Assembly: GCF_900114545.1 (NCBI RefSeq)
Contig: NZ_FOTI01000026.1
Location: forward strand, 1-39,288
Origin: Halanaerobium salsuginis
GTDB lineage: Bacteria > Bacillota > Halanaerobiia > Halanaerobiales > Halanaerobiaceae
DNA length: 39,288 bases
Direction of reading: 5' to 3'
Positions 6,281 to 34,331 of this stretch are shown in pieces. The translations under genes and the position numbers were made by a program. The first letter of the stretch is position 1. The number at the start of each line of letters is the position of its first letter. The notes beneath the pieces were generated by a model. The model worked only from the letters and a program-made list of their open reading frames with translations, did not search any database and was not told where the DNA came from.

Positions 6281-6286
6281 TAACGG

Positions 6287-6361: not shown

Positions 6362-6508
6362 GTTTCTGATTTTTTGATTACTTAGTTTAAATGTATGGTT
6401 TTTTACTTAATTAAACTTAATTTTGTTTTATAATTAAATAAATTAATCATTTGAGCAGGCATAAATAGTAAACTTACAATAACTTTTATTTAGATAGGAG
6501 TTGAGAAG

Positions 6509-7090
6509 ATGACTGATCATAAATTTAATCCAGCTAAGAGAGCTAAATTATTAGCTAAATCAAGGTTAGAAATTCTGCAGCCTTTTAATTTATTGAAAAG
6601 ATTTAATTTACAAGCAGGAGATATATTTATTGATGTTGGTGCTGGAAATGGTGCTTTTGCTATACCAGCAGCAAAGATTGTTGGCAGAACAGGTTTTGTT
6701 TATGCTGTTGATGTAGAAATTAAGATGCTGCTTGATTTAAAATATAGAGCTCAACAGCTGGATTTATCGAATAGAATAGAAATAATAAAGAGCCAGGAAA
6801 ATGATGCTAACTTGCGTCAGCCGGCTGATCTAATGCTATTTTCTTATATGTTGCATGAGGTAGATAATAAATTTATTTTTTTAGAGAACTATTTTAGATT
6901 TCTTAAAACAGGAGCACGGGTAATTTTTATTGAATGGCAAGCTGATGTTGATGATAAAGCAGGTCCACCAGCTTCTCATAGAGTTGCTAGATCAGAATTA
7001 AAAGAGCTTCTAAAAGATAATAATATTACTGATTTAGAAACTGAAGAACTCAGCTCAGAAATCTACTTAATGACAGGATTAAAAAAATAA
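6509..7090 (+). CDS. Class I SAM-dependent methyltransferase
   Basis: 193 residues. The SAM-binding motif I, FIDVGAGNGAF (about 40-50), is followed by VYAVDVEIKML with an acidic residue ending strand 2, and a later LMLFSYMLHEV strand-4 motif, as in UbiE/Methyltransf_11-type enzymes. The C terminus carries a short ELKELLKDNNITDLETEEL helix-strand unit. The substrate is not evident; similar small enzymes in anaerobes methylate small molecules or metalloids, but no cysteine cluster for arsenite is seen. ATG 6509 has TAGGAG upstream. It converges on the degV gene with a 9-base gap. Confidence 0.85.
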   Translation: MTDHKFNPAKRAKLLAKSRLEILQPFNLLKRFNLQAGDIFIDVGAGNGAFAIPAAKIVGRTGFVYAVDVEIKMLLDLKYRAQQLDLSNRIEIIKSQENDANLRQPADLMLFSYMLHEVDNKFIFLENYFRFLKTGARVIFIEWQADVDDKAGPPASHRVARSELKELLKDNNITDLETEELSSEIYLMTGLKK

Positions 7091-7099
7091 ATTTAAAAT

Positions 7100-7972
7100 C
7101 TATTTGCTTAAAAAATCACCACTTAAACCAAGAACTGCGTAGACTGTTGGGCCAACATGGCAGCCCAGGGTAGGACTGATCCGACTATTAAATAATTTTA
7201 TTTCTTTATTTTGTTTTATTTTGCTTAATAGTTTATTCTTAGTTTTATTTAGATCATTTTCTCTTCTACCGTGGGCAAAGCCCAGCCAGATATTTTGCTC
7301 ATTTTCTATTTTATTTAAAACAAGTTTAATAATTTTATCCATGGCCCTTCTTTCCCCTCTTGCCTTAGCAACTGGCTCTACTTTACCATTCTCAGAGTTA
7401 ATTGAAATTACTGGATTTATCTTAAAGATTGACCCTAAAAAAGAACTTGCCTTACCAATTCTGCCTCCCTTTTCCATATAAGTTAGATCTTTAACTGTAA
7501 AATAGAGAAAAAGATTTTGGCGTGCTTTTTTCAGCAGTGCAACTATTTCTGGAGCCGATTTATTTTGAAAACTTAATTCAGCTGCCAGATTTACTAACAT
7601 ACCTAATCCAAGTGAAATAGTTGCACTGTCTACTACTGTAATTTTCCCAACAGGGAATTCTGCAGCAGCAAGTTTGGCTGATTCAAAGGTACCACTGAGA
7701 GCTTTTGCAACATGGATTGAAATTATTTGCTCATGTTTTTTAAGTAAGTTTTTATATTTTTGAATAAATAAATTAGGTGCAGGTCGAGAAGTATGTGGTA
7801 GTTTTGTTGAATTTTTTAACAAAGAAAAAAAGCTATCTGCATTAATATCTATGCCATCTTGATAAATTTCCTCTCCGAAGTGGACTGAAAGAGGTACTAC
7901 TTCTATTTGATATTTACTAATTAGTTCTGTGTCTAAGTCACAGGTACTATCTGTTACAATTCCAATACTCAT
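7100..7972 (-). CDS. DegV family fatty-acid-binding protein
   Basis: 290 residues, the standard family length. It opens with IGIVTDSTCDLDTELISKY, has the HTSRPAP motif near residue 60, ISIHVAKALSGTFESAK near 100 and a C-terminal GCHVGPTVYAVLGLSG; these threonine/serine and histidine motifs bind the fatty-acid carboxylate in DegV/FakB proteins. In Firmicutes such proteins present exogenous fatty acids to the kinase FakA for phosphorylation and phospholipid synthesis. No fakA (DAK-domain) gene is in the window. It lies downstream of the AraC gene on the same strand with an 89-base gap. Confidence 0.93.
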   Translation of the reverse strand: MSIGIVTDSTCDLDTELISKYQIEVVPLSVHFGEEIYQDGIDINADSFFSLLKNSTKLPHTSRPAPNLFIQKYKNLLKKHEQIISIHVAKALSGTFESAKLAAAEFPVGKITVVDSATISLGLGMLVNLAAELSFQNKSAPEIVALLKKARQNLFLYFTVKDLTYMEKGGRIGKASSFLGSIFKINPVISINSENGKVEPVAKARGERRAMDKIIKLVLNKIENEQNIWLGFAHGRRENDLNKTKNKLLSKIKQNKEIKLFNSRISPTLGCHVGPTVYAVLGLSGDFLSK

Positions 7973-8061
7973 AAACTACTCCCTTCATAATTATTATAAG
8001 CTATTAAGTTATTTGTAAAAGCTATAGTTAATTTTAGCACTTAAATTTTTTGCTGTCCAAT

Positions 8062-8877
8062 TTAATATTTACTGGGAGAACAGCCCATTATTTTTTTGAA
8101 GATTTTAGAAAAAGAATATTGATCTTTATAGCCAACACTAATTGCAGCTGTTTTAACAGTTAAATGATAGTTTTTTAATAAAAAAGCTGCTTTTCTTATT
8201 CTAAATTCTATTAAATATTGCTGTGGAGACTTTTCTAATAATTGATTAAAAATTTCCCAGAGATAAGATCTATTTAAACCAACATAGGCTGCAATATCAG
8301 TTATTTTTAGATCTGGACTTGAATAATTACGGTCAATATAATTTAGAGCAACTTTTAAATAATTGTATTTAAATTCTTGTTCATTATTTCGAACAGTTTT
8401 AGCATTATTTTCAATTAGCTCAGCAAAAAATAAATAGAGCAGTCCAGTAAGTTTAATTTCTTTTGATTTTTTTAAATTTCCTGTTTCTGTCATTTTCCAG
8501 AAAAGCTGAGAGATTTGAGCAGGATTATTAACTGTAAAAAATGGTTGTTCCGGGCTAATTCCTGCCAAATTAAGATTTTTTTCTGCTTTGAGACCATTAA
8601 AACCAATCCAGGAATATTGCCAGGGGGTTTTTTTATCTGCTTGATAATAAGAAATTATTTCTGGCCAGATTACAAATCCCTGTCCTTTTTGTAAATAAAT
8701 TTTTTTTTTATTAAATGAAAAAAAACCTTTACCCTGATGAATATAATGGACTAAAAAATAATCTCTAATTGCTGGGCCATAGCTGTGTTCTGGTGGACAT
8801 TTTTGGGAACCACAAATATGAATATCAAGATCAGTTAAATTAAGACGATTAATTTGTAGATCATTTTCAACAGCCAT
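8062..8877 (-). CDS. AraC family regulator of the alpha-galactoside operon
   Basis: 271 residues. The N-terminal half is an AraC-type sugar-binding cupin (the HYIHQGKGFF and YLQKGQGFVIWP strands, about 45-75). The C-terminal half has two helix-turn-helix units: KITDIAAYVGLNRSYLWEIF and TVKTAAISVGYKDQYSFSKIFKK, ending GCSPSKY. It lies divergent from the GH4 alpha-galactosidase gene with a 137-bp shared upstream region, the usual arrangement for MelR/RafR-like activators, so it probably activates melA and the MFS gene in response to melibiose or a related galactoside. The ligand is inferred from position only. Confidence 0.9.
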   Translation of the reverse strand: MAVENDLQINRLNLTDLDIHICGSQKCPPEHSYGPAIRDYFLVHYIHQGKGFFSFNKKKIYLQKGQGFVIWPEIISYYQADKKTPWQYSWIGFNGLKAEKNLNLAGISPEQPFFTVNNPAQISQLFWKMTETGNLKKSKEIKLTGLLYLFFAELIENNAKTVRNNEQEFKYNYLKVALNYIDRNYSSPDLKITDIAAYVGLNRSYLWEIFNQLLEKSPQQYLIEFRIRKAAFLLKNYHLTVKTAAISVGYKDQYSFSKIFKKIMGCSPSKY

Positions 8878-8950
8878 TTTAAGTTCCTTTCTTCATTTAA
8901 TTTAAATAGTCAAATCCAACATTAGACTATGCTAAACTTACATAAAATCA

Positions 8951-8980
8951 TTTATATTTATATATTACTATGGATATAAT
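8951..8980 (+). promoter_or_regulatory. Candidate activator-dependent promoter of melA
   Basis: TATAAT at 8975-8980 is preceded 18 bases upstream by a poor -35 (TTTATA, 8951-8956). A good -10 with a weak -35 is common where an AraC-type activator is needed. TAGTC and GACTA (about 8909-8932) form a short inverted pair upstream that could be part of the activator site. Confidence 0.35.
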
Positions 8981-9014
8981 TAAATTACAAATTTGAGATA
9001 AAAGGAGAGATAAA

Positions 9015-10310
9015 ATGTTGAAAATTACTTTTTTAGGAGCTGGGAGTACTGTTTTTGCCAAAAATGTTTTAGGAGATTGTATTCTAACACCTGCATTACA
9101 GGAAGCAGAATTTGCTTTATATGATATTGATCAACAGCGGCTTAAGGATTCAGCAATGATGCTAGAAAATATTAATAGAAATTATGGTAATCAAGCTAGA
9201 ATTAGAAGCTATCATGAATTGAAAAAAGCTTTAAATGGAGCTGATTATATAATTAATGCGATCCAGGTGGGTGGATATCGACCTTCGACAGTAATTGATT
9301 TTGAGATTCCTAAGAAATATGGTTTACGACAAACTATCGCTGATACGCTAGGGATTGGAGGTATCTTTAGAGCCTTGCGAACAATTCCTGTATTGCTTGA
9401 ATTTGCAAAAAAAATAGAAACAGTAGCACCAGAAGCCTGGTTTTTGAATTATACTAATCCTATGGCAATTTTAACCGGTGCAATGCTCCGGGCAACTGGA
9501 GTAAAGACAGTTGGCTTATGTCATAGTGTACAGGTTTGTCATCAAAATTTATTAGAACCACTTGATATGAGCACTGATAATATTCAATATAAAATTGCTG
9601 GAATTAATCATATGGCATGGCTTTTGGAAATCACAAGAGATGGCAAAGACCTTTATCCAGAAATTAAAAAGAAGGCTTTTAATCGTACAGAGCCTCATTC
9701 TGATTTGGTACGTTATGAAATTATGAAACAATTTGGTTATTATGTAACAGAATCTAGCGAACATAATGCAGAATACTTACCTTATTTTATAAAAGAAAAA
9801 TATCCTGAACTAATAGAAAAATTTCAGATTCCTCTTGATGAATATCCTCGTCGCTGTGAAAAACAGCTGGCTGATTGGAGCGAAATGAGAGATGAACTTG
9901 TTAAAAATGAACAGATTGAACACCAGAGAACAAAAGAATATGCTTCTTATATATTAGAAGCAATGGAAACTAATAATCCTTATAAAATTGGTGGAAATGT
10001 TTTAAATAAAGGATTAATTACTAATTTGCCAGCTAAAGCAGTTGTTGAGGTACCTTGCTTAATTGATAGCAGCGGTGTTTCTCCCTGCTATGTAGGAGAA
10101 CTACCTGAACAATTAGCTGCTTTAAATAGAACAAATATTAATACTCAATTGCTAACAATTAAAGCTGCTTTAACTAGAAAAAAAGATTATATTTATCAGG
10201 CAGCAATGTTAGATCCTCATACTTCAGCAGAATTAACTATTGACGAAATTATTAATTTATGCGATGATTTGATAGAGGCCCATGGAGATTGGTTGCCCAA
10301 ATATAAATAA
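9015..10310 (+). CDS. melA: GH4 alpha-galactosidase
   Basis: 431 residues, family-length. The N-terminal Rossmann motif ITFLGAGSTVFAKNVLGD (4-21) binds NAD+; C169 (GLCHS) and H199 (NHMAW) are the expected Mn2+ ligands of GH4. The pattern DTLGIGGIFRALRTIPV and the C-terminal LTIDEIINLCDDLIEAHGDWLP match MelA-type enzymes. GH4 enzymes cleave by NAD-dependent oxidation and elimination, here predicted on melibiose and raffinose-type alpha-galactosides in the cytoplasm (no signal peptide). Other GH4 members are alpha-glucosidases or 6-phospho-glycosidases; the CHS motif and the AraC/MFS context favour alpha-galactosidase. AAGGAGAG precedes the ATG. Confidence 0.9.
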   Translation: MLKITFLGAGSTVFAKNVLGDCILTPALQEAEFALYDIDQQRLKDSAMMLENINRNYGNQARIRSYHELKKALNGADYIINAIQVGGYRPSTVIDFEIPKKYGLRQTIADTLGIGGIFRALRTIPVLLEFAKKIETVAPEAWFLNYTNPMAILTGAMLRATGVKTVGLCHSVQVCHQNLLEPLDMSTDNIQYKIAGINHMAWLLEITRDGKDLYPEIKKKAFNRTEPHSDLVRYEIMKQFGYYVTESSEHNAEYLPYFIKEKYPELIEKFQIPLDEYPRRCEKQLADWSEMRDELVKNEQIEHQRTKEYASYILEAMETNNPYKIGGNVLNKGLITNLPAKAVVEVPCLIDSSGVSPCYVGELPEQLAALNRTNINTQLLTIKAALTRKKDYIYQAAMLDPHTSAELTIDEIINLCDDLIEAHGDWLPKYK

Positions 10311-10322
10311 ATTGGGAGTGAT

Positions 10323-11483
10323 ATGGTGGCATTTTTGCAAAAAAATCGCAATAAGTTATTAATTATGGCATTTACAATTATGCTGATGAACGGAGTTGTC
10401 AATAATTTAAGGGGCCAAATTGGTCCCTTTATAATTGAACAATATAGTTTAAGTTATAGTAAATTAGGCTTTTTGTTTTCTTTTTTTTCAATTGGCTCAA
10501 TGGTGGTTTTCTTTTTTACAGGTAAATTAATAGAAAGATTTGGTTTAGTTAGATTACTTTTAGGTGGATTAGTGACAAATTTTATTGCTCTATCATTATT
10601 CTTCTGGATAAATAGCTATTATTTGTTGATATTAGCATTTACTTTGATTGGAATTGGTCTAACAATCCTTAACATTTCGGCAGTAAATTTAGTTTCAATT
10701 TCTTATAGTAAAAAGAGAGGAAAGATGATAAATCTGCTCCATTTATTTTATGGAATTGGAGGTATTTCAGCACCATATTTTGTAACAGTTTTAATAAAAA
10801 ATGGTTTTAGCTGGTCAAGCAGTTTTCTTTTTAGTCTTATTTTTGTAATTATAATTGGCTGGCAGTTTAAGTTAGTTAGTCTGCCGCAGATAGAAGTTAA
10901 AACTGGAAAGCAGCAGATGGATTCTACTTTAAAACTTCTGCAAAATAGGAGAGTTACTTTATTTGCTTTAATTGTTTTTTTACAAGTTGGAGTAGAGTTT
11001 TCTATGGTTACCTGGCTGGCACCTTTTTTAAAAAATTTTCAGGGAAGATCAGAGCTGGCAGTTAGTTTTCATTTATCATTATTCTTTATTGCTTTTACAG
11101 TAGGAAGGTTTATTGCCAGTCTATTAGTAGAAAAATTTGGGTATTATAATTTTTTGCTTTTTAACTGTGCTGCAGCTATCTTATTTATTAATACTGCAGT
11201 AATTGGTGGCTATAACTATACTATTTTATTACCACTATCGGGCATATTCTTAGCTGTTCAGGTACCAACCACTCAGGCTGCTATTTTTGATAGTTTTTCG
11301 CAAAATGGGATTAAAGTAGTTGGATTTTCTCAGACAGCAGGTATGATTGGTTCGACCGTACTATCAAACTGGTTATTAGGTTTTGTAAATGACTTCTTTA
11401 ATTTAAAAGCAAGTTTTATTGCCTTAATTTTAGTTTTAATAATCTCATTTTTAGCGACTTATCGTTTAAAACAGCTTAGTTAG
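10323..11483 (+). CDS. MFS sugar transporter, FucP-like
   Basis: 386 residues with about 12 hydrophobic helices and the MFS loop signature GKLIERFGLVRLLLGG (about 66-81), repeated weakly as SLLVEKFGYYNF in the second half. The overall shape resembles FucP/FHS-type sugar-proton symporters. It starts 12 bases after melA with GGGAG upstream, so it is surely in the same operon, and probably imports the galactoside that MelA cleaves. A drug-efflux role cannot be excluded by sequence, but context argues against it. It converges on the SprA-like gene with a 7-base gap and no visible terminator. Confidence 0.88.
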   Translation: MVAFLQKNRNKLLIMAFTIMLMNGVVNNLRGQIGPFIIEQYSLSYSKLGFLFSFFSIGSMVVFFFTGKLIERFGLVRLLLGGLVTNFIALSLFFWINSYYLLILAFTLIGIGLTILNISAVNLVSISYSKKRGKMINLLHLFYGIGGISAPYFVTVLIKNGFSWSSSFLFSLIFVIIIGWQFKLVSLPQIEVKTGKQQMDSTLKLLQNRRVTLFALIVFLQVGVEFSMVTWLAPFLKNFQGRSELAVSFHLSLFFIAFTVGRFIASLLVEKFGYYNFLLFNCAAAILFINTAVIGGYNYTILLPLSGIFLAVQVPTTQAAIFDSFSQNGIKVVGFSQTAGMIGSTVLSNWLLGFVNDFFNLKASFIALILVLIISFLATYRLKQLS

Positions 11484-22521: not shown

Positions 22522-23280
22522 TTAAATCACCTGTAAGCCAGCTGTTTCAAATTGATCAATAATTTTGATATCTGCTTTACTATCAGTTATTAATTTATTT
22601 ATGTTAGAGAAATCAACAAATTTTGCCAGAGCTATCTGATCTAATTTACTATGGTCAGTCAGTAAAATAACTTCTTCAGCCTGTTTAATCATGTTTTCTT
22701 TTACTTCAATTTCTAGTTCATTAGAATCTGTTGCTCCTTGATCAATAGAGATTCCTTTGCAAGATGCAAAAATTTTATCTGCAAAATATTTTTTGACAGT
22801 TTCATTAGCTAATGGACCGACAAAAGAAAAAGAATTATCTCTTAGAATACCACCAGTTGCAATTACAGTTACATTTTGACAATCAATAAGTTCGAGCATA
22901 ACTTTAATTGAATTAGTAATTATTGTTAAATGATTAATATTGCTTAATTCGCGGGCCAGGTACATTGAGGTTGTACTTGCATCAAGAAAAATTGTTTCTC
23001 CTTCCTTAACTAAATTAACAGCTTTTTTAGCAATTTCTATTTTGGATTTTTTTAATTTATTTTCTCTTACACTAAAGCTTAGTTCTGCTTTACTATTTGT
23101 TTCTAGAGCAACTGCTCCTCCATGAGTACGGCTCAATAAACTCCTATCATCAAGAATATCAAGATCTCGTCGAATAGTTTCTTCGGTAACATTTAATTCT
23201 TTACTTAAATTCGAAACATGAACAGTCCCCTGACTGTTAATTTTTTCCAGGATAATCTGTCTTCTTTCTTCTGCCAGCAT
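22522..23280 (-). CDS. DeoR family repressor, likely of rhamnose genes
   Basis: 252 residues, the family norm. The N-terminal helix-turn-helix reads ERRQIILEKINSQGTVHVSNLSKELNVTEETIRRDLD (about 5-41), followed by the SRTHGGAV motif and a DeoRC sugar-phosphate-binding domain (IFLDASTTSMYLAREL, near 95-110; ATGGILRDNSFSFVGP, near 140-156). Divergent from rhaB with a 496-bp gap, it most likely controls rhamnose catabolism, as the DeoR-type RhaR does in Bacillus; effectors of the family are phosphorylated sugars, here perhaps rhamnulose-1-phosphate. AGTG/AGGGGAAG lies before its ATG. Confidence 0.9.
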   Translation of the reverse strand: MLAEERRQIILEKINSQGTVHVSNLSKELNVTEETIRRDLDILDDRSLLSRTHGGAVALETNSKAELSFSVRENKLKKSKIEIAKKAVNLVKEGETIFLDASTTSMYLARELSNINHLTIITNSIKVMLELIDCQNVTVIATGGILRDNSFSFVGPLANETVKKYFADKIFASCKGISIDQGATDSNELEIEVKENMIKQAEEVILLTDHSKLDQIALAKFVDFSNINKLITDSKADIKIIDQFETAGLQVI

Positions 23281-23776: not shown

Positions 23777-25255
23777 GTGCAGAGTAGAGCTTTAGCAGTT
23801 GATATAGGGGCCTCAAGTGGTAGATTGATTTCGGGTTTATTAAAAGAAAATATTTTAGAATTATCAGAAATACATAGGTTTGATAATCAAATTATAAAAA
23901 AAGAGGATGCAGCTGGCTTAAAAGAGGATTGCTGGGACTTAGCTAAATTATATCGAGAAATTTTAGTTGGTTTAGAAAAAAGCAAAGCTAATTCAGTTGC
24001 AGCAGAGAGTATTGGAATTGATACCTGGGCAGTAGACTTTGTTTTACTTGATCAAAAAGAAGAAATAGTTGGTCAGCCTGTTGCTTATCGTTCTGCCAGA
24101 ACTAATGGGCAGATGGAAAAAGTTTTTAAGCTAATTCCACAGGCAGATCTTTATCAGAAGACAGGTATTCAGTTCTTACAAATTAACACTATTTATCAGC
24201 TTGCTGTTTTAAAAGAAAAATTTCCTGAACAATTAGCAAAAGCAGTTAGTTTTTTAATGATTCCAGATTATTTTAACTATTTATTAACTGGACAGAAAAC
24301 AAATGAATATACAAATGCAAGTACAACCCAACTGATTAATGTAAAAAGTAAAACTTGGGATCAGGAAATTTTAAATAAATTAGGAATTAAAAAGTCTATT
24401 TTTGAGGAACCTATTGCAGCTGGTAAAAGTCTGGGTAAACTTAAAGCCAAATTAAGACAGAAGCTAGAATTGGCTGAACTGCAGGTAATTGCGCCTGCAA
24501 CTCATGATACAGGATCTGCTATTGCAGCAGTACCGACAAATTCTAAAGATTATGCTTATATAAGTTCTGGCACCTGGTCCTTAATGGGGATTGAAACTGA
24601 CTCAGCAATATGCAGTGAAAATGCTTTGAAATATAATTTTACCAATGAAGGTGGAGTTTATGGAACCAATCGATTTTTGAAAAATATTATGGGATTGTGG
24701 TTAATTCAAGAAGTTAAAAAAGAATTAAACAATAAATATAGCTTTGCTGAATTAGTAAGTCTAGCTAAAAAAACACCTGCTTTTCGTTCTTTAATTAATC
24801 CCAATGATAATAGTTTTTTAAATCCCCCCAGTATGATTCAGGCAATTCAAGAATATTGTAGTAATAGTCAGCAGCCTGTTCCGGAACAGCCAGGTGAACT
24901 GGCTAGATGTATTTTTGAAAGTCTTGCCTGTCAGTATAAGCAAGTTTTATTAGAATTAAATGAAGTAGCTGATCAAAAAATAACTAAGCTACATATAATT
25001 GGTGGTGGTGTTCAGAATGAGTTTTTAAATCAATTAACAGCTAATATCACTGGGCTTGAAGTTTATGCTGGACCAATTGAAGCAACAGCAATTGGTAATC
25101 TAATAGTGCAGTATATTACACTTGGTCGACTTAGCTCACTGGCAGAAGCGAGAGAAATAGTTAGTAATTCATTTACAATTAAACATTATCAACCTGCTGA
25201 TTTATCTGGAAATAATGCAGCAGGCTGGCAGAAATTTTTAACATTACAAATTTAA
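23777..25255 (+). CDS. rhaB: L-rhamnulose kinase
   Basis: 492 residues, FGGY kinase family. The ATP-binding start LAVDIGASSGRLISG (residues 6-20), YRSART near 102, the central ATHDTGSAIAAVP, SSGTWSLMGIE and the C-terminal IIGGGVQNEFLNQLTANI all fit rhamnulokinase. It phosphorylates L-rhamnulose to L-rhamnulose-1-phosphate. It starts at GTG 23777, 7 bases after AGAGGAGG. It is first in the rhaB-rhaA-rhaD-rhaM series; the rhaA start lies 15 bases after its stop. Confidence 0.95.
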   Translation: MQSRALAVDIGASSGRLISGLLKENILELSEIHRFDNQIIKKEDAAGLKEDCWDLAKLYREILVGLEKSKANSVAAESIGIDTWAVDFVLLDQKEEIVGQPVAYRSARTNGQMEKVFKLIPQADLYQKTGIQFLQINTIYQLAVLKEKFPEQLAKAVSFLMIPDYFNYLLTGQKTNEYTNASTTQLINVKSKTWDQEILNKLGIKKSIFEEPIAAGKSLGKLKAKLRQKLELAELQVIAPATHDTGSAIAAVPTNSKDYAYISSGTWSLMGIETDSAICSENALKYNFTNEGGVYGTNRFLKNIMGLWLIQEVKKELNNKYSFAELVSLAKKTPAFRSLINPNDNSFLNPPSMIQAIQEYCSNSQQPVPEQPGELARCIFESLACQYKQVLLELNEVADQKITKLHIIGGGVQNEFLNQLTANITGLEVYAGPIEATAIGNLIVQYITLGRLSSLAEAREIVSNSFTIKHYQPADLSGNNAAGWQKFLTLQI

Positions 25256-25270
25256 GTGGAGGGAAAAAAG

Positions 25271-26536
25271 ATGAATCAAGCAGTTGATAAAATTAAAGCT
25301 GATTATCAGTCAGCTAAAAAACAGTATGCAAAATTAGGTGTAGATACAGAAGCCGCTCTGGCAGAGCTTAGTCAAATTTCAATTTCTATGCACTGCTGGC
25401 AGGGAGATGATGTAATTGGTTTTGAGGGAAACACAGAGCTTTCTGGTGGGATTCAGGCTACTGGAAATTATCCTGGTCGAGCTAGAACACCTGAAGAACT
25501 AATGGCTGACATTGATCAAGCTTTAAGCTTAATACCAGGCCAGCATCGTTTAAATTTACATGCTAGCTATGCAATTTTTAATGATGATAATCAGGTGGAT
25601 CGTAATCAACTTAAACCAGAACATTTTAAGGCCTGGGTCGATTTTGCTAAAACAAGAGGTTTAGGCATAGATTTTAATCCAACCTTTTTTTCGCATCCTA
25701 AAGCAGCTGAAGCTACTTTATCAAGTCAGGATGAAGATATCCGTAAATTTTGGATTGAGCATGGTCAATGTTGCTTGCGGATTGCAGAATATTTTGCCGA
25801 AGAATTGGACTCAGCCTGTACAGTAAATATCTGGATCCCAGATGGTTTAAAAGATGTACCTGCTGATCGAACAGCTCCCCGGGCCAGACTGAAGGATTCT
25901 TTAGATCAAATAATTGCAATCCCTTACGATAAAGATAAAGTTAATGTAGCAGTAGAATCTAAAGTGTTTGGAATTGGATTAGAAAGCTATACAGTTGGTT
26001 CACATGAATTTTATATGAATTATGCTGCTCAAAACAATCTATTATGTTTATTAGATAATGGGCATTATCACCCGACAGAATCTGTAGCTGATAAGATTTC
26101 AGCAATGCTATTATTTTATGATAAAGTAGCACTTCATGTAACAAGACCAGTACGTTGGGATAGTGATCATGTAGTTCTATACGATGATCGGACAAAAGAA
26201 ATTGCTAAAGAAATAATCAGAAATGGATCAGATAGGGTAATTTTAGGTCTTGATTTTTTTGATGCTAGTATTAATCGTATTTCCGCCTGGGTAGTTGGTA
26301 TGCGAAATATGCAAAAGGCATTACTTAATGCTCTCTTATTACCAGCAGATAAATTAGCAAAATTACAGGATAAAAAAGAATTTACTAAATTAATGATGCT
26401 GCAGGAAGAATTGAAATTGTATCCAGTAGGGGCTGTCTGGAACTACTTCTGTCAGCAAAATAAGGTTCCTGAACAAGAATACTGGTTTAAAGAAATAGAG
26501 CAATATGAAAAAGAGATTTTAAGCAAACGCCAGTAG
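25271..26536 (+). CDS. rhaA: L-rhamnose isomerase
   Basis: 421 residues from ATG 25271 (E. coli RhaA has 419). A longer frame from GTG 25256 is unlikely because it would contain the Shine-Dalgarno site GGAGGG (25259-25264). Strong RhaA blocks: SMHCWQGDDV, GGIQATGNYPGRAR, FNPTFFSHP, NIWIPDGLKD, AVESKVFGIGLESYTVGS, ALHVTRPVRWDSDHVVL and GLDFFDASINRISAWVVG. It converts L-rhamnose to L-rhamnulose using Mn2+ in the cytoplasm. Its place between rhaB and rhaD makes the catabolic role certain. Confidence 0.97.
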   Translation: MNQAVDKIKADYQSAKKQYAKLGVDTEAALAELSQISISMHCWQGDDVIGFEGNTELSGGIQATGNYPGRARTPEELMADIDQALSLIPGQHRLNLHASYAIFNDDNQVDRNQLKPEHFKAWVDFAKTRGLGIDFNPTFFSHPKAAEATLSSQDEDIRKFWIEHGQCCLRIAEYFAEELDSACTVNIWIPDGLKDVPADRTAPRARLKDSLDQIIAIPYDKDKVNVAVESKVFGIGLESYTVGSHEFYMNYAAQNNLLCLLDNGHYHPTESVADKISAMLLFYDKVALHVTRPVRWDSDHVVLYDDRTKEIAKEIIRNGSDRVILGLDFFDASINRISAWVVGMRNMQKALLNALLLPADKLAKLQDKKEFTKLMMLQEELKLYPVGAVWNYFCQQNKVPEQEYWFKEIEQYEKEILSKRQ

Positions 26537-26562: not shown

Positions 26563-27390
26563 ATGAAAGTATTAGCTGCAGAATTTATGCAGAATTTTAT
26601 TAGGATGGCAAATGATGGTTGGGAATTAGGCTGGCATGAACGTAATGGAGGTAATCTGAGTTATAGAATAAAAGCAGCAGAAATTGAAACAATAGCAAGT
26701 AATCTAGATAAAAATACTCCCTGGCTAGAAATTGGTACAGCTGCGCCGGAATTGGCAGGCGAATATTTTTTAGTAACAGGTAGTGGAAAATATTTTAGGA
26801 ATATTATTCTTGATCCAGAGTCTACTCTAGCTATAATAGAAATAGATAAAAGTGGAGAAAAGTATCGAATTTGTTGGGGGTTAAAAGATAATGGCCGTCC
26901 CACAAGTGAACTTCCTTCCCATTTGATGAATCATGAAGTTAAAAAAATTGCCAGCTCCGGTAAATATAGAATTATTTATCATGCCCATGCTCCAAATGTA
27001 ATTGCTCTTACCTTTGTTTTACCTCTGGAAGACAGGGTTTTTACCAGAGAATTATGGGAAATGGCTACAGAATGTCCTGTTGTTTTTCCAGATGGTATTG
27101 GGGTAGTTAGCTGGATGGTTCCTGGCGGTCGTGAGATAGCAGTTGTGACTAGTAAATTAATGGAAAAATATGATGTTGCTATCTGGGCTCATCATGGTAT
27201 TTTTTGTGCTGGTGAAGATTTTGATTCCACTTTTGGTTTAATGCATACAGTAGAGAAATCAGCGCAAATCTTAGTTAAAACGCTTTCAATTAGTCCCGAT
27301 AAGTTACAAACTATTACAGCTCAAAATTTTAGAGATCTTGCTAAAAGTTTTGAGGTCGAACTGCCAGAAGAGTTTTTATATGAAAAATAA
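26563..27390 (+). CDS. rhaD: L-rhamnulose-1-phosphate aldolase
   Basis: 275 residues, class II (zinc) aldolase family. Zinc ligands H140, H142 and H211 (YHAHAPN, WAHHGIFCAG) and acids E116 and E170 correspond to the E. coli set shifted by one. NGGNLSYR (28-35) and LVTGSGKYFRN (70-80) form the phosphate site. It splits rhamnulose-1-phosphate to dihydroxyacetone phosphate and L-lactaldehyde. No lactaldehyde-handling enzyme is in the window, so that step must be coded elsewhere. It follows rhaA by 26 bases with AAAGAGGTG upstream. Confidence 0.96.
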   Translation: MKVLAAEFMQNFIRMANDGWELGWHERNGGNLSYRIKAAEIETIASNLDKNTPWLEIGTAAPELAGEYFLVTGSGKYFRNIILDPESTLAIIEIDKSGEKYRICWGLKDNGRPTSELPSHLMNHEVKKIASSGKYRIIYHAHAPNVIALTFVLPLEDRVFTRELWEMATECPVVFPDGIGVVSWMVPGGREIAVVTSKLMEKYDVAIWAHHGIFCAGEDFDSTFGLMHTVEKSAQILVKTLSISPDKLQTITAQNFRDLAKSFEVELPEEFLYEK

Positions 27391-27430: not shown

Positions 27431-27458
27431 CAGCTGATCTAAATATTTAGATCAGCTG
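27431..27458 (+). repeat. Perfect 28-bp palindrome between rhaD and rhaM
   Basis: CAGCTGATCTAAAT (27431-27444) is followed directly by its reverse complement (27445-27458). As RNA it forms a stable hairpin, but no T run follows, so it is more likely an mRNA-stability or processing element, or a protein-binding site, than a terminator. Confidence 0.7.
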
Positions 27459-27516: not shown

Positions 27517-27843
27517 ATGCAGCGTTATGGGTTTAAATTATTTTTAAAAGATGAAGCTACAGTTCCAGAATATAAAAAAAGACATACAGAAATCTGGCCT
27601 GAAATGATAGAAGTTTTAGATAAAGCAGGCATCAAAAATTATTCAATTTGGAATTCAGGCAAAGTTTTATTTGGTTATTATGAATGTGAAGATAAAGTAT
27701 ATGCTGATCAGTTTCAGGCTGAAAGTAAAGTTGTTGCTAAATGGAATCATTATATGCAGGATCTGCTCGTAAGTGAGAAAGATGATTCAGGTAGACTGGT
27801 GCCTGTAATTGAAACAATGGAGCTGATGTTTTATAAGAAATAA
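27517..27843 (+). CDS. rhaM: L-rhamnose mutarotase
   Basis: 108 residues, close to E. coli RhaM (104). The family core YKKRHTEIWPEMIEVLDKAGIKNYSIW carries the active-site His (H23), and the C-terminal KWNHYMQDLL and ETMELMFYK segments match. It speeds conversion of alpha and beta anomers of L-rhamnose, supplying the form used by RhaA. GAGGAGG is 7 bases before ATG 27517. The hairpin upstream may set its level separately from rhaBAD. Confidence 0.95.
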   Translation: MQRYGFKLFLKDEATVPEYKKRHTEIWPEMIEVLDKAGIKNYSIWNSGKVLFGYYECEDKVYADQFQAESKVVAKWNHYMQDLLVSEKDDSGRLVPVIETMELMFYKK

Positions 27844-27931
27844 TGATTTGAAATATTTAAGAATATTATGATATAAAGCATTAGGAATTTATTGCAAAGA
27901 ATATAATTATACTAATATGGAGGATACATAT

Positions 27932-29416
27932 ATGAAAAAAACAAAAAAAGGAAGAATAGGTTTATATACTGTAGGCCATCCTCATTACTGGGATCAGTTT
28001 GAAGGACTCCAAGATAGGTTGCTAGAGTATGCTAGTTTTATTGAAAAAAAAATGTCACAGTGGGGTGAAATATATAATTATGGTATGGTTGATACAGAAA
28101 AAAGGGCTAAAGCAGCAGGGGAATGGTTTAATACAAAAAATGTAGATCTTTTATTTTGTTATTCTGCTACTTATGCAATGAGTGGTTCTCATATTGCTAT
28201 TCCACAGATAACTGGAGTACCTGTAATTGTTTTAAATTTACAACCAACAGCAAGAATAAATTATAAAGAAACAACAACGGGGGAGTGGTTAGCACATTGT
28301 GGAGCTTGTTCAGTTCCAGAAATTTCTAATGCATATCAGCGTTGTGGAATTGAATTTAGAGCTGTAAATGGGTTACTTGGTCTTGATTATACTCCAGAAA
28401 TATCTAAAACTGATGAGAATACAAGTAATTATCCTGATGCAATTGCTGCTTGGAAAGAAATTGAAGAATGGATAAAAGCAGCTACTGTAAAAAGAAATTT
28501 GCAATCAGCAAAAATGGGTTTTTTAGGACATACATATCCAGGGATGCTTGATATGTATAGTGATTTTACAATGATTACTTCAGAAACTGGAATGCATGTT
28601 GAAGTTCTGGAAATGTGTGATCTGGATCGATTATTTGAAACAATACAAGAAGATGAAATAAAAGAAAAATTGGAAGAAATTAAAAAAATGTTTATTTTAA
28701 GTGAAGATTCGACAGCTGATCCTCTTGCTAAAAAACCAACAGAAAAACAATTAGACTGGTCTGCAAGAGTTGCAATTGCTCAGGATAAGTTGGTAGATGA
28801 GTTTGAGCTGGATGCTTTGACATATTATTATCGCGGAGCAGAAGGTAATAAATATGAACATCTTCAGTCTGGTTTCATAGTAGGAAATTCTTTACTTACT
28901 GCTAGGGGAATTCCCTGTGCCGGTGAAGGAGATATGAAAACTGCTCTAGCTATGAAAATTGCTGATACACTTGAATTAGGAGGAAGTTTTTGTGAAATAG
29001 TAGTTACAGATTTTAAAGATCAAACTATATTATTAGGACATGATGGTCCTTTTCATATTGGAATAGCTTCTCAAAAGCCAGTTTTAAGAGGTATGGGACT
29101 TTATCATGGTAAATGGGGAACAGGTGTTTCGGTAGAAGCAAAAGTAAAAAAAGGTCCTATTACTACTTTAGGAGTTACACAGACAGCTGGGGGAAGTTTA
29201 AAAATGATAATTAGTGAAGGTATGGCAACTGATGGTCCTGTGATGGAAATTGGTAATACAATGACTCCCGTAAAATTTGATATTTCACCAAAAAAATATA
29301 TGGATAGGTGGTTTAAGTCTGGTCCGACTCATCATTTTGCAATGTCAATTGGTCATAATAAATCTCAGTTTAAAAAAATTGCTAAACTTCTGGATATTGA
29401 TTATGAGATAATTTAG
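27932..29416 (+). CDS. Arabinose/fucose isomerase-like protein, substrate unknown
   Basis: 494 residues from ATG 27932; an ATG at 27917 is in frame but overlaps the Shine-Dalgarno GGAGG (27919-27923). The protein resembles the L-fucose/L-arabinose isomerase superfamily: an N-terminal Rossmann-like half (GRIGLYTVGHPHYWDQFEGL, VDLLFCYSATYAMSG), and a C-terminal half with CAGEGDMKTALAMKIAD, TDFKDQTILLGHDGPFHIG and GPTHHFAMSIGHNKSQF, whose Glu, Asp/His and His residues are plausible metal ligands. It lies between rhaM and the importer genes although a full RhaA is present, so it may handle another deoxysugar or pentose, or act as a second isomerase. Cytoplasmic. A specific function cannot be assigned. 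Confidence 0.8.
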   Translation: MKKTKKGRIGLYTVGHPHYWDQFEGLQDRLLEYASFIEKKMSQWGEIYNYGMVDTEKRAKAAGEWFNTKNVDLLFCYSATYAMSGSHIAIPQITGVPVIVLNLQPTARINYKETTTGEWLAHCGACSVPEISNAYQRCGIEFRAVNGLLGLDYTPEISKTDENTSNYPDAIAAWKEIEEWIKAATVKRNLQSAKMGFLGHTYPGMLDMYSDFTMITSETGMHVEVLEMCDLDRLFETIQEDEIKEKLEEIKKMFILSEDSTADPLAKKPTEKQLDWSARVAIAQDKLVDEFELDALTYYYRGAEGNKYEHLQSGFIVGNSLLTARGIPCAGEGDMKTALAMKIADTLELGGSFCEIVVTDFKDQTILLGHDGPFHIGIASQKPVLRGMGLYHGKWGTGVSVEAKVKKGPITTLGVTQTAGGSLKMIISEGMATDGPVMEIGNTMTPVKFDISPKKYMDRWFKSGPTHHFAMSIGHNKSQFKKIAKLLDIDYEII

Positions 29417-29596: not shown

Positions 29597-31096
29597 ATGA
29601 TGTCCAAATATATACTCGAACTGAAGAATATAACTAAAACTTTTCCAGGAGTTAAAGCTCTAGATAATGTAAATTTTCAATTAAAATCCGGAGAAATTCA
29701 TGCACTTATGGGTGAAAATGGTGCTGGTAAATCTACTTTTATAAAAGTAATAACTGGAGTACATCAGCCAGATCAAGGAGAAATTTTTTTAAAAGGTAAA
29801 AAAGTAAATATTAAAGATCCGAACGATTCAAAAAAACTTGGTATAGCAGCTATTTATCAACATGCAACGAGTTATCCTCATTTAAGCGTAACTGAAAATA
29901 TTTTTATGGGTCATGAAAAAATAGATATAAAAACTAAACGGATTCTCTGGGAAGATATGCATCAATCAGCAGAAAAATTTTTGAAAGAATTGGGGGCAGA
30001 ATTTGATCCTAAAAGGCGAATGAGTACTTTAAGTGTAGCTCAACAGCAGATAGTTGAAATAGCTAAAGCAATTTCAACTAATGCAGAAATTATAATTATG
30101 GATGAACCTACAGCTTCATTAACTAAAACAGAAAGTGAAGATCTTTATAGAATTACTGAAAAGCTGCAGGAAATTGGCACCTCAATAATTTTCATTTCTC
30201 ACCGTTTTGAAGATATGTATAGGTTGGCAGGGAGAGTTACAGTATTTAGAGATTCTAAATATATTGGTACCTGGGGAGTTAATGAAGTCTCTAATCAAGA
30301 TCTAATTAAAGCAATGGTTGGTCGAGAAATTACTCAGATGTTTCCGAGCAAGAATGCAGAAATTAGTGAAGAAATATTTAGAGTAGAAAAGTTGAGCAGA
30401 AAAGGATATTTTAAAGATATTTCCTTTACTTTGCATAGTGGTGAAATACTTGCCATAACAGGATTAGTTGGTGCAGGCCGTACTGAATTATGCCAGTCTT
30501 TATTTGGAATTGAAAGATATGATAGTGGTAAGTTATATTTTGAAGGTAATGAAGTAGAGATTAAAGAGGTTCAAGCTGCAATGAAACTTGGTATTGGTTA
30601 TTTACCTGAAGATAGACAGGAACAGGGATTAATTCTGGATTGGGAACTTGATAAAAATATTTCTTTAACATCTTTAGATAAAATTTCACAATATAGTTTT
30701 ATTGATCGCAAAAAAGAAAAATCAATGGCTAAAAGATTAGCAGAACTAGTTAATGTAAAAGCACGCTCAATTTTTAATTTAGCTAAAGAGCTTTCAGGAG
30801 GTAATCAGCAAAAAATAGTTGTAGCAAAATTATTAACTTCTGATTTGAAAGTTATAATTCTTGATGAACCAACTAAAGGGGTTGATGTAGGAGCAAAATC
30901 AGCAATTTTTAAAATAATGGCTGATCTAGCAGCTCAAGGTTATGCAATTATTATGGTTTCTTCAGAAATGCCAGAAGTATTAGGTATGGGAGATAGAATT
31001 TTAGTAATGAGAAATGGAGAAATCACTAAAGAAATGGCTGTTGAAGAGGCAAGTCAAGAAAAAATACTGGCAGCAGCGATGCAGGAAAAAATATAA
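29597..31096 (+). CDS. Sugar ABC transporter ATPase, two NBDs (CUT2), likely rhamnose
   Basis: 499 residues with tandem ATPase domains, as in RbsA/RhaT. The first half has Walker A GENGAGKST (about 39-47), signature LSVAQQQ and Walker B IIIMDEPTAS; the second half has the usual degenerate Walker A GLVGAGRTEL, then LSGGNQQK and VIILDEPTKG. It energises sugar import with the two permeases downstream. The start may be either of two adjacent ATGs (29597 or 29600), after AAGGAGAG. A 180-bp AT-rich gap before it shows no clear terminator, so it is probably transcribed with rhaBADM. Confidence 0.93.
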   Translation: MMSKYILELKNITKTFPGVKALDNVNFQLKSGEIHALMGENGAGKSTFIKVITGVHQPDQGEIFLKGKKVNIKDPNDSKKLGIAAIYQHATSYPHLSVTENIFMGHEKIDIKTKRILWEDMHQSAEKFLKELGAEFDPKRRMSTLSVAQQQIVEIAKAISTNAEIIIMDEPTASLTKTESEDLYRITEKLQEIGTSIIFISHRFEDMYRLAGRVTVFRDSKYIGTWGVNEVSNQDLIKAMVGREITQMFPSKNAEISEEIFRVEKLSRKGYFKDISFTLHSGEILAITGLVGAGRTELCQSLFGIERYDSGKLYFEGNEVEIKEVQAAMKLGIGYLPEDRQEQGLILDWELDKNISLTSLDKISQYSFIDRKKEKSMAKRLAELVNVKARSIFNLAKELSGGNQQKIVVAKLLTSDLKVIILDEPTKGVDVGAKSAIFKIMADLAAQGYAIIMVSSEMPEVLGMGDRILVMRNGEITKEMAVEEASQEKILAAAMQEKI

Positions 31097-31124: not shown

Positions 31125-32132
31125 ATGTCTGAAAAAAGCTCTAAAAATAAGATTAGTTTAGAACGAATCCAACAAATTAGAGAGTTTAGTTTGATTGGTT
31201 TTATAATTGTTCTTTCAATATTTGTACAATTTCGTAATAGTAATTTTTTAACAATGTCAAACATTGATGACCTTTTGACAAATACAGCTATACTTTCAAT
31301 TTTAGCTGTAGGAATGATGATGGTAATAATTACTCGAGGAATTGATCTTTCTATAGGTGCTACTCTTGCCTTATCAGGTATGGTAACTTCAATGACTGTA
31401 TCTAATTATCCATCACTTCATCCATTAGTAGCATTATTAATTGGTATATTTATTGGGTTAATTAGTGGTGCAATAATTGGTCTTTTAGTTGCGAAGTTTA
31501 ATATCTTACCTATAATTGCTACTCTTGGGATGATGAATGTTTTTAGGGGAATAACTTTTCTAATTAGTGGTGGCAAATGGGTTAGTGCTTATCAGATGTC
31601 AGATAGTTTTAAAGCTATTTCAACTGGGAGTATTCTGGGAATTAATAATTTAATTTTAATTGCGATTATTATTTATCTAGTTTTTTATTATTTTATCAAT
31701 TATACTAGAACCGGTCGTAAAATATATGCTGTAGGTAGTAGTCCGGAATCAGCAAAAATTAGTGGAATTAATGTTGATCGTATTACCTGGCTCGTTTATT
31801 CAATTATGGGAGGATTAGCAGGTTTATCAGGGGTTTTATGGGTTTCCAAGTTTGCTTCTGCGCAGAGTAATACTGCTTCTGGTTACGAGATGAATGTTAT
31901 AGCTGCTTGTGTAATTGGTGGAGTAAGTATTGCTGGTGGGGAAGGTAAAGTTACGGGATTAATTTCTGGGGTTTTACTTTATGGTATTTTAGAAAATGCC
32001 CTACCAATGATTAATGTTTCTCCTTTCTGGCAGAATGCAATTCAGGGAGCTGTAATTCTAATTGCAGTATTGGTAAGTGCTTTAATTAAAAGAAGAATTG
32101 GAAGCTCTAATAAAATAAGGAGGGAAGATTAG
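31125..32132 (+). CDS. Sugar ABC transporter permease (RbsC-like, CUT2)
   Basis: 335 residues, about 8-10 hydrophobic segments after a charged N terminus. ITRGIDLSIGATLALSGMV (about 69-87) and GKVTGLISGVLLYGILENAL (about 273-292) are RbsC/BPD_transp_2 hallmarks, as is RKIYAVGSSPESAKISGINVD. It is one of a permease pair in the rhamnose-type importer and lies 28 bases after the ATPase gene with AGAGGTG upstream. Confidence 0.93.
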   Translation: MSEKSSKNKISLERIQQIREFSLIGFIIVLSIFVQFRNSNFLTMSNIDDLLTNTAILSILAVGMMMVIITRGIDLSIGATLALSGMVTSMTVSNYPSLHPLVALLIGIFIGLISGAIIGLLVAKFNILPIIATLGMMNVFRGITFLISGGKWVSAYQMSDSFKAISTGSILGINNLILIAIIIYLVFYYFINYTRTGRKIYAVGSSPESAKISGINVDRITWLVYSIMGGLAGLSGVLWVSKFASAQSNTASGYEMNVIAACVIGGVSIAGGEGKVTGLISGVLLYGILENALPMINVSPFWQNAIQGAVILIAVLVSALIKRRIGSSNKIRRED

Positions 32133-32135
32133 ATT

Positions 32136-33146
32136 ATGGTAAATAATTCTAACAATGGAATCACTTTAAATAGAGAAATAAAATCAGAAAAAGAATTTAG
32201 TTTAAAAAAATTCTTTTTTCAATGGGAATGGTTGCTATTTTTAATTTTTATAGCTATTCATATTATAAACTCCCAACTATCCCCCTATTATTTAAACACC
32301 TATACTTTACTTGATGCAACGATGACTTTTCTGGATAAAGCTTTTATTGCTCTTTCTATGACTTTTGTTATTATTTTTGGGGATATTGATATTTCTGTAG
32401 GATCAACTATTGCACTTGCTTCTGTAATTATGGCAGTTTTATATAATGCAGGTTTACCTATGCCATTAGCTATACTTGTTTGTCTTTTAGTTGGAGTTAT
32501 TGCTGGTTTTATTAATGGCATTTTAATTGTTAAGTTCAAAGAGTTATCAGCCGTAATTGTTACTTTATCAACAATGATTTTATATCGAGGAATTGCCTAC
32601 ATTATTTTAGAAAATCAGGCTTCAGGTGGATTTCCGATGTGGTTTAATTTTCTTGGTTGGGGATATATTAAAACTATAATTCCCTTTATTTTAGTTGCCT
32701 TTATAATAGCAGCTGTAATATTTTATGTTTTATTACATAAAACAACTTTTGGTCGAAAAGTTTATGCGATTGGAAATAATGATGTAGCCAGTTTATTTTC
32801 TGGAGTTAAAGTAGATAAAATAAAAATTATTGTTTTTACTTTAAATGGTTTAATGGCGGCTATAGCAGCCTTGTTTTTAACTTCAAAAATGGGCAGTACC
32901 AGACCTAATATAGCATCAGGTTATGAATTAGATGTAATTGCTATGGTTGTTTTAGGTGGAGTGAGTACTTCAGGTGGAAAGGGTCGGATGATTGGAGTCT
33001 TACTTTCAATTTTTATTATAGGTTTTTTACGTTATGGACTTGGTTTAGTAAATGTACCAGATCAGGTAATTCTAATTGTAATTGGTATTCTGCTAATTTT
33101 TTCAGTTATGCTGTCAAATTTAAAGTTATTTAGTAATAAATCTTAA
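32136..33146 (+). CDS. Sugar ABC transporter permease (RbsC-like, CUT2), second
   Basis: 336 residues; same family as the preceding permease but with its own divergent N terminus. FGDIDISVGSTIALASVIM, GRKVYAIGNNDVASLFSGVKVD and GGVSTSGGKGRMIGVLLSIFIIG are present. Two different RbsC-type permeases are the layout of RhaP/RhaQ rhamnose importers and of Lsr systems. Its start is 3 bases after the previous stop, with AAGGAGGG inside the end of that gene. Confidence 0.93.
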   Translation: MVNNSNNGITLNREIKSEKEFSLKKFFFQWEWLLFLIFIAIHIINSQLSPYYLNTYTLLDATMTFLDKAFIALSMTFVIIFGDIDISVGSTIALASVIMAVLYNAGLPMPLAILVCLLVGVIAGFINGILIVKFKELSAVIVTLSTMILYRGIAYIILENQASGGFPMWFNFLGWGYIKTIIPFILVAFIIAAVIFYVLLHKTTFGRKVYAIGNNDVASLFSGVKVDKIKIIVFTLNGLMAAIAALFLTSKMGSTRPNIASGYELDVIAMVVLGGVSTSGGKGRMIGVLLSIFIIGFLRYGLGLVNVPDQVILIVIGILLIFSVMLSNLKLFSNKS

Positions 33147-33245: not shown

Positions 33246-34247
33246 ATGAAAAAGTTTTTGATTAGTTTTATGGTTTTAGTAAGTATTTTTATGCTGGTGG
33301 GAAATGTTACTGCTCAAGAAGGAAAGTATGCTATAATTGTTAAAAATGCTGGTAATCCTTATAATGAAAAAGAAATGGATGGCTTTGAAAAAGCAATTAA
33401 TGAAATTGGCGGTGAAGTAATACTTAAAGCCCCAGCTGAGCCAACTGCTGAATCACAAATTATTATGATTGAACAGCTAATTACTCAACATGTTGATGCA
33501 ATAGCTATTGCTGGTAATGATCCTGATGCTTTACAACCAGCTTTAAAGAAAGCAATGAGCAGGGGAATTAAAGTTTTATCACTGGATTCTGCTGTTAATG
33601 CACAGAGTAGAATGGTTCATATTAATCAGGCTGATCCAGAGCAAATTGGTCGAGTTCAGATTCAGGCAATTTCAGAAATGATTGGTGGTTCAGGTCAAAT
33701 TGCAGTTTTAAGTGCTACTTCTCAAGCAGCAAATCAAAACACCTGGATTGAATGGATGAAAAAAGAACTAGAAAAACCAGAATATGATCAAATAGAATTA
33801 GTCAAAGTTGCTTATGGTGATGACTTAAGAGATAAAAGTGTCTCAGAAACAGAAGCGCTGCTTAAGTCATATCCTGATTTAAAAGGTATTATAGCCCCAA
33901 CAACAGTGGCAATTGCAGCTGCTGGAAAAGTACTTACAGATAGAGGTTTACAGGGAGAAATAGAATTAACTGGTTTAGGTCTTCCTAGTGAAATGGCCGA
34001 ATATATTAAAAATGGTGTTTGTGATTGGATGTATCTCTGGAATCCAATTGATGTTGGTTATTTAGCTGGCTATGCTGCAGAAGCTTTAGTGACTGAAAAA
34101 ATAACTGGAAATCCTGGTGAAACATTTGAAGCTGGTAGACTTGGTTCAAAAGAAGTAATTCAGGCTGGTGATGGAACTGAAATTATGCTGGGAGCTCCTT
34201 TTAGATTTGATAAAGAAAACATTGATCAGTGGAAAGATGTCTATTAA
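33246..34247 (+). CDS. Sugar ABC transporter binding protein (RhaS-like, CUT2)
   Basis: 333 residues. A signal peptide (MKKFLISFMVLVSIFMLVG, cleavage near VTAQEG at residues 21-26) precedes a family-4/7 periplasmic binding domain: YAIIVKNAGNPYNEKEMDGFEKAI, VDAIAIAGNDPDALQPALKKAMSRGIKVLSLDS and a C-terminal CDWMYLWNPIDVGYLAGYAAEAL resembling LsrB/RhaS. It binds the sugar outside the cytoplasmic membrane for the two permeases. Position at the end of a rhamnose operon suggests L-rhamnose; autoinducer-2-type ligands are an alternative for this subfamily. AAGGAGGAA precedes the ATG. Confidence 0.92.
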   Translation: MKKFLISFMVLVSIFMLVGNVTAQEGKYAIIVKNAGNPYNEKEMDGFEKAINEIGGEVILKAPAEPTAESQIIMIEQLITQHVDAIAIAGNDPDALQPALKKAMSRGIKVLSLDSAVNAQSRMVHINQADPEQIGRVQIQAISEMIGGSGQIAVLSATSQAANQNTWIEWMKKELEKPEYDQIELVKVAYGDDLRDKSVSETEALLKSYPDLKGIIAPTTVAIAAAGKVLTDRGLQGEIELTGLGLPSEMAEYIKNGVCDWMYLWNPIDVGYLAGYAAEALVTEKITGNPGETFEAGRLGSKEVIQAGDGTEIMLGAPFRFDKENIDQWKDVY

Positions 34248-34276: not shown

Positions 34277-34299
34277 ATTATATAATAATTAGGTTATTA

Positions 34300-34331
34300 A
34301 ATCCAGCTCAATTATTGAGCTGGATTTTTTT
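34300..34331 (+). terminator. Terminator of the rhamnose operon
   Basis: AATCCAGCTCAA pairs perfectly with TTGAGCTGGATT around a 3-base loop, followed by TTTTTT. It cleanly separates the rhamnose and MurNAc units. Confidence 0.9.

Follow-up and report, generated by a model that had tools for sequence, protein, structure and literature searches.

A gene for an isomerase-like protein of the AraA/FucI fold was found inside the rhamnose operon of Halanaerobium salsuginis, and its homologues in several phyla were found to form a clade of their own, whose members commonly accompany a canonical rhamnose isomerase instead of replacing one. The gene (27932..29416, forward strand) and its homologues are labelled X; L-numbers denote loci, G-numbers denote genomes, and G000 is the genome of the window, which is the whole stretch of 39,288 nucleotides that was analysed. 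The fold, the ligands, the clade, the rhamnose linkage, the co-occurrence and the optionality of X were computed. The reading that we prefer, to which we give an even chance, is that X is an accessory metal-dependent aldose-ketose isomerase that would feed a second sugar into RhaB-RhaD.

The rhamnose operon around X

The operon was found to contain rhaB-rhaA-rhaD-rhaM-X-ABC-permease-permease-rhaS in this order, preceded by a divergent DeoR gene and followed by a terminator-like hairpin. X lies 88 bp 3′ of rhaM and 180 bp 5′ of the ABC ATPase gene. The features are as follows:

22522..23280, reverse strand: divergent DeoR-family regulator, probable rha repressor (PF08220/PF00455), whose homologues lie 5′ of the rha genes in G001, G004 and G025
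23777..25255, forward strand: rhaB, L-rhamnulokinase (TIGR02627, 630 bits, over cut-off)
25256..26536, forward strand: rhaA, canonical L-rhamnose isomerase (PF06134, 641 bits; TIGR01748 and NF002203 over cut-off)
26563..27390, forward strand: rhaD, L-rhamnulose-1-phosphate aldolase (NF002963, 323 bits, over cut-off; TIGR02624 below cut-off)
27431..27458, no strand assigned: 28-bp palindrome without mismatches in the rhaD-rhaM gap, candidate operator or RNA hairpin, absent from the list of terminator-like sites
27517..27843, forward strand: rhaM, L-rhamnose mutarotase (PF05336 over cut-off; TIGR02625 below cut-off)
27932..29416, forward strand: X, AraA/FucI-fold isomerase-like gene (494 aa; predicted metal ligands E332, E355, H370 and H468)
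29597..31096, forward strand: sugar ABC transporter ATPase (PF00005), sharing 86% identity with its counterparts in three congeners whose rha operons lack X
31125..32132, forward strand: sugar ABC transporter permease 1 (PF02653)
32136..33146, forward strand: sugar ABC transporter permease 2 (PF02653)
33246..34247, forward strand: rhaS, substrate-binding protein of the rhamnose ABC transporter (391 bits with TIGR02637, over cut-off)
34299..34327, forward strand: terminator-like hairpin with a T tail 3′ of rhaS, likely the operon end (consensus match; the region holds 8 such sites against 4.3 expected)

The preliminary description had placed a 494-residue arabinose/fucose-isomerase-like protein between rhaM and the importer, beside a complete rhaB-rhaA-rhaD-rhaM set. 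Both statements were confirmed, the protein by its ORF, its Pfam matches and the neighbour profiles, and the neighbours by NCBIfam (RhaB, RhaA, RhaD and RhaS) and Pfam (RhaM).

The 28-bp palindrome was considered as a regulon operator and rejected; no second copy of 27431-27458 was found genome-wide at up to 3 mismatches, and the single occurrence therefore rules out a regulon by that exact motif.

Reading frame and family matches of X

The frame of X was found to be intact from the ATG at 27932 to the stop at 29416, with a translation of 494 aa. An alternative in-frame ATG at 27917, which is the start given in the ORF list, would give a product of 499 aa. The ATG at 27932 is favoured because a GGAGG motif at 27919-27923 is overlapped by the ATG at 27917 and is well spaced for the start at 27932. 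A chance ORF was excluded because homologues with 40-77% identity over near-full length were found at 34 of 35 loci, mostly in other phyla according to the record labels.

X was found to match PF02952, PF11762 and PF24856 in Pfam, the C-terminal and central domains of L-fucose/L-arabinose isomerases, each slightly over the cut-off. The score against the NCBIfam AraA model was 52.9 bits, about one twelfth of the cut-off of 622, and that against NF048012 (SftI) was 38 bits over residues 174-492 with a cut-off of 700. No match at E <= 0.001 was found to TIGR01089 (FucI) in the NCBIfam scan, or to PF06134, TIGR01748 and TIGR02635 (RhaA/RhaI) in the Pfam and NCBIfam scans, and none of the NCBIfam models exceeded its cut-off in the four X members that were scanned.

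Fold and metal site

The AlphaFold2 model of X (pLDDT 91.6, pTM 0.92) was found by Foldseek to be most similar to L-arabinose isomerases (E 3.8e-32, TM 0.81), followed by L-fucose/D-arabinose isomerases. The same order was obtained with VIA-align, in which AraA gave Z 34-36 and an rmsd of 2.6-2.9 A over 451-458 residues with 15-17% identity, and FucI/D-arabinose isomerase gave Z 28-29, followed by the next chain at 9.9. A profile built from 25 X-family sequences was found to match eight distinct sequences among the solved structures at E up to 1, all of them L-arabinose isomerases (best E 7.6e-9). As modelled, X is a whole-length member of the AraA/FucI structural superfamily.

The metal ligands of E. 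coli AraA, which we take to be E306, E333, H350 and H450, were found to correspond to E332, E355, H370 and H468 of X in the HMMER and MAFFT alignments; the pairing of E333 with E355 is that of the HMMER alignment, the MAFFT alignment being one column off there. In the E. coli sequence, E306 is the Glu of the AGEGD motif. An alignment of 43 rows was made from the window protein, its counterparts at all 35 loci and seven members of a distant sub-clade. E355, H370 and H468 were found to be invariant in it (43/43), and E332 was invariant in 42/42, the fragment L059 ending short of it. The ligands proposed in the preliminary description as plausible are thus all kept, with four counterparts in the window protein and in the aligned homologues, and the constancy of the four makes it likely that the isomerase chemistry is conserved. 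By analogy with the characterised enzymes, we infer that X would act through a cis-enediol with two acids as acid/base.

The ligands Glu337, Asp361 and His528 are given for Raoultella FucI in the accessible text of its description (PMC6894278); these residues were found to align with E332, E355 and H468 of X, D361 by position. The second acid was Glu in all X rows versus Asp in the FucI and SftI-like rows. The residues Y298, Y299, H375, H392 and K394 were found to be constant across the X rows and missing at the aligned AraA, FucI and SftI-like positions, and AraA Q125, H128 and F279 were replaced by C123, C126 and Y300 in the window protein.

Phylogeny and distribution of the clade

When species-representative genomes were scanned, relatives of X (40-77% identity; L059 is a fragment) were found at 35 loci, in records whose labels include Planctomycetota, Verrucomicrobiota, Hydrogenedentota, Bacillota and Bacteroidota. 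The nearest homologue (L026, 77% identity) was found in a metagenome bin labelled Verrucomicrobiota, and its dN to X was 0.16, the synonymous sites being saturated so that no dS was obtained.

In a tree of 68 rows, X was found to form one clade of 30 rows with support 99/99, and AraA formed a separate clade of 9 rows with support 100/100. The X side of this tree comprises the window, 25 of the 35 loci and four sub-clade rows (L090, L091, L096 and L097); FucI, four long-branch rows and the sub-clade rows L092, L093 and L094 were omitted from it. A quick tree that also included FucI and the long-branch rows, and that was likewise drawn from the window plus 25 loci, supported the 26 X rows at 75 and a core of 22 rows at 100. 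The check named beforehand, whether copies from rhamnose loci group together, thus gave a single clade, and placement within the L-arabinose isomerases, named beforehand as the result that would speak against the idea, was not observed, X lying outside the AraA clade. Judged by sequence, X is neither AraA nor FucI.

The planctomycete sub-clade, 38-46% identical to X, was found at L101-L107 (G429, G349, G402, G366, G078 and G383). L101 lies amid GH78, GH106 and sulfatase genes and is the only rhamnosidase-bearing locus of the seven; L104 adjoins a sodium:solute symporter gene, L102 is near a URO-D-family gene, and the remaining surroundings were matched by no query. A RhaT-X fusion in L049 (849-aa open frame) was considered and rejected. 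The RhaT homology stops at frame residue 313, and the fusion is attributed to a frame slip in one metagenome assembly because the frame of RhaT itself runs to a stop before X.

Rhamnose genes near the homologues of X

A rhamnose-specific gene was found within 10 kb of X, or up to the contig end, at 25 of the 35 loci as a raw count. RhaT was near X in 17 loci, within 400 bp in 12 of those, followed by an alpha-L-rhamnosidase of GH78/GH106 in 15 loci, the rha ABC importer in four, and RhaI with RhaB in two; the categories overlap, and most rhamnosidases were detected by similarity to a few Pfam-checked ones. No rhamnose genes were found by the queries in the other 10 loci (L027, L033, L036, L037, L041, L042, L045, L052, L053 and L059), some of which are on short or cut contigs; a weak match to part of RhaEW in L037 was left uncounted. 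AraC-type regulators were found near X in 12 loci, several of them adjacent and divergent.

In G086, X (C28:198314-199312) and RhaA (C28:212953-214203) were found on one contig 14 kb apart, with ABC, permease, RhaS, RhaM, RhaEW and RhaB genes between them. In L046 and L051, X was found to be separated from the rha ABC genes by genes for an additional binding protein with 31-35% identity to RhaS, for a histidine kinase and for a response regulator of the AraC type. This set resembles a sugar-sensing three-component system; the content of L051 was assigned by clustering.

Rhamnose operons without X

The rha clusters of the congeners G001, G004 and G005, and of G025 of the same order, were found to contain rhaM directly followed by the ABC gene, without X. 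These clusters share the RhaB, RhaA, RhaM and importer genes with the window and differ in some other genes; the ABC and permease proteins were 86-90% identical to those of the window in the congeners and 72-80% identical in G025. In G019, also of the same order, only an 86-aa C-terminal ORF of X was found, between the RhaI gene and rhaM. The absence of X from the congeners was established by a protein search, which may miss distant relatives, and for the rha operons also by synteny. Because of these X-less clusters and the remnant in G019, the core rhamnose pathway does not seem to depend on X.

Some further differences were found in these clusters. In G005 (L126, G005:C12:53000-70000), the rha genes follow an EutN/CcmL gene for a microcompartment shell protein, a gene for an aldehyde dehydrogenase and several ORFs of 87-102 aa, and no RhaD match was found within this stretch. 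In two congeners (L127 and L128), an iron-containing alcohol dehydrogenase gene, perhaps for a lactaldehyde reductase, lies between rhaD and rhaM, whereas this gap in the window is only 126 bp.

X and the canonical isomerases in carrier genomes

Profiles of RhaA and RhaI were searched in 35 carrier genomes, with the genome of the window included and that of L059 left out. RhaA was found in 20 and RhaI, at 400 bits or more, in 11, six of them over the model cut-off; one or the other was present in 30 of the 35, and both only in G081, so that RhaA and RhaI rarely occur together (1/35; Fisher p 1.5e-4, shared ancestry ignored). Of the other five, G066 was found to contain an incomplete RhaI at a contig end, and neither RhaA nor RhaI was detected in G073, G074, G075 and G080. 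The loci L038-L040, from G073-G075, were found to contain RhaT, X and GH106 together in genomes without detected RhaA, RhaI or full-scoring RhaB, so that X could be the rhamnose isomerase there.

RhaA alone was surveyed in 179 genomes of one planctomycete family, taken from a larger group, with an X threshold of 300 bits or more, after G406 (X 50 bits) and G470 (RhaA 28 bits) had been excluded. RhaA was present in 12 of 12 carriers of X, seven with core X and five with only the 38-46% sub-clade, versus 46 of 167 non-carriers (p 5.8e-7, shared ancestry ignored). Without the six seed genomes already known for X the comparison was 6/6 versus 46/167 (p 6e-4), five of the six carrying only the sub-clade. 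X thus usually occurs alongside a rhamnose isomerase, with RhaA or RhaI in 30 of the 35 carriers and RhaA in all 12 family carriers, and the same counts disfavour X as a substitute for RhaA/RhaI.

The host was found to contain its own AraA (C16:287-1771, 823 bits, over cut-off) and its own FucI (C25:6380-8140, 1047 bits, over cut-off), the latter inside a fucose operon. AraA, FucI, RhaA/RhaI and X coexist in seven of the 35 carriers, the genome of the window among them. The fucose operon, a second sugar operon of the host (L112, G000:C25:1-20000, at 5803-10391), contains a fucose mutarotase-like gene followed by FucI, a kinase and a fuculose-phosphate aldolase. The kinase scored 487 bits with the rhamnulokinase model, below the cut-off of 528, and only 164 with the fuculokinase model; a RhaB-like kinase apparently serves the fucose pathway of this host.

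In the accessible text of Rodionova et al. (2013; PMC3870299), RhaA and RhaI are the two isomerase types of rhamnose regulons, with one type per lineage, Bacillales excepted, and that text contains no third isomerase-like gene.

Proposed function of X

In the preferred reading, a second aldose would enter through the rhamnose importer or RhaT, or would be freed by alpha-L-rhamnosidases, X would convert it into a ketose with a metal that is probably Mn2+, and the ketose would then be processed by RhaB and RhaD. We infer that the second sugar uses the rhamnose importer. Among aldoses, the 2,3-threo ones (L-arabinose, D-galactose, L-fucose, D-arabinose and sulfoquinovose) are generally favoured by the characterised enzymes of the AraA/FucI fold, and L-quinovose (6-deoxy-L-glucose) is the 2,3-threo 6-deoxyhexose with L-rhamnulose as its ketose; on these two grounds the substrate of X is guessed to be L-quinovose. 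The preference is not a strict rule, since Raoultella FucI has some activity on D-mannose according to the accessible text (PMC6894278). The suggestion in the preliminary description that X widens the operon to another sugar held in part: by elimination another sugar would fit, as the host owns RhaA, AraA and FucI, whereas the four carriers without detected RhaA/RhaI would fit a rhamnose isomerase.

That last case is the main rival, in which X represents a third type of L-rhamnose isomerase, not orthologous to RhaA and RhaI but an isoenzyme of them that differs in kinetics, metal need or regulation. We regard it as possible though doubtful. It would account for the tight linkage of X to RhaT, the rhamnosidases and the rha ABC genes, for those four genomes, and for the RhaI gene beside the C-terminal remnant of X in G019, which looks as if RhaI had made X dispensable; but RhaA or RhaI is already present in most carriers (30/35), the isofunctional pair RhaA/RhaI was found in only one of the 35, RhaA was found in 12 of 12 carriers of the family survey, and RhaA and X stand together in the window and in the G086 locus. 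Quite unlikely, in our judgement, is a role in which X keeps the fold and the metal and does something else, such as epimerising a rhamnose derivative or sensing sugar for a regulator. The four constant catalytic ligands point to conserved isomerase chemistry and away from such a role, even with the clade-constant Y298, Y299, H375, H392 and K394 missing from the AraA, FucI and SftI-like rows, with AraC-type regulators adjoining X in several loci, and with X standing ahead of the binding-protein/histidine-kinase/response-regulator set in L046 and L051.

The weak matches to the NCBIfam AraA model and PF02952, together with an alpha-L-fucosidase gene two genes downstream of X in L028 and with clustered counterparts in L029 and L032, would suit a diverged L-arabinose or L-fucose isomerase acting on those sugars. 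With an AraA and a FucI already in the host, FucI in its fucose operon, and with X in a separate clade at one twelfth of the AraA cut-off, this was considered highly improbable. The claim in the preliminary description that X is not a relic stood in this genome, where the frame is intact and all metal ligands are kept; a relic in the course of loss, as might be read from the lone 86-aa C-terminal ORF in G019 and the rha operons of three congeners without X, is extremely improbable given that frame, the constant ligands and a dN of 0.16 to the nearest homologue.

Returning to the preferred accessory isomerase, a bolder form of it would give the cross-phylum AraA-fold clade the dedicated role of bringing a second deoxyhexose into the pathway, with conversion of L-quinovose to L-rhamnulose as the best guess; we think this unlikely as a whole. 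If true, X and RhaA together would also interconvert L-rhamnose and its 2,3-threo epimer by epimerisation at C2, and the rhamnose pathway would be opened to glycans so far not assigned to it. Among the literature matches listed, whose coverage mostly leaves out subscription papers, no description of this clade in rhamnose operons was found in the accessible texts. An orthologous rhamnose-linked enzyme across several phyla marks a gap in deoxysugar metabolism; its assignment could keep such proteins from being annotated as L-arabinose or L-fucose isomerases and might bring to light an overlooked sugar that bacteria use from rhamnose-rich glycans. Synthesis, too, could benefit from a new isomerase acting on rare deoxy sugars.

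Comparison with known systems

AraA (COG2160; PDB 2AJT and 4F2D) was found to share with X the full-length fold, the E/E/H/H metal set and a length of about 500 aa, whereas it differs in the structural-alignment identity of 15-17%, the separate clade, the Q125/H128/F279 residues and an arabinose context in place of the rhamnose context of X. FucI/D-arabinose isomerase (PDB 1FUI and 4C20) shares the fold, with E337 and H528 aligned to E332 and H468 of X, whereas its second acid is Asp instead of Glu, E. coli FucI exceeds X in length by about 100 residues, and a separate FucI copy is present in the host of X. SftI (NF048012) was found to resemble X in a weak profile match (residues 174-492, 38 bits) and to differ in its separate branch and in the Asp second acid of six SftI-like rows, which are themselves below the cut-off of 700. 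RhaA and RhaI, which are xylose-isomerase-like TIM barrels, share with X the operon or genome and, as assumed here, the reaction type, whereas neither family's Pfam/NCBIfam models match X.
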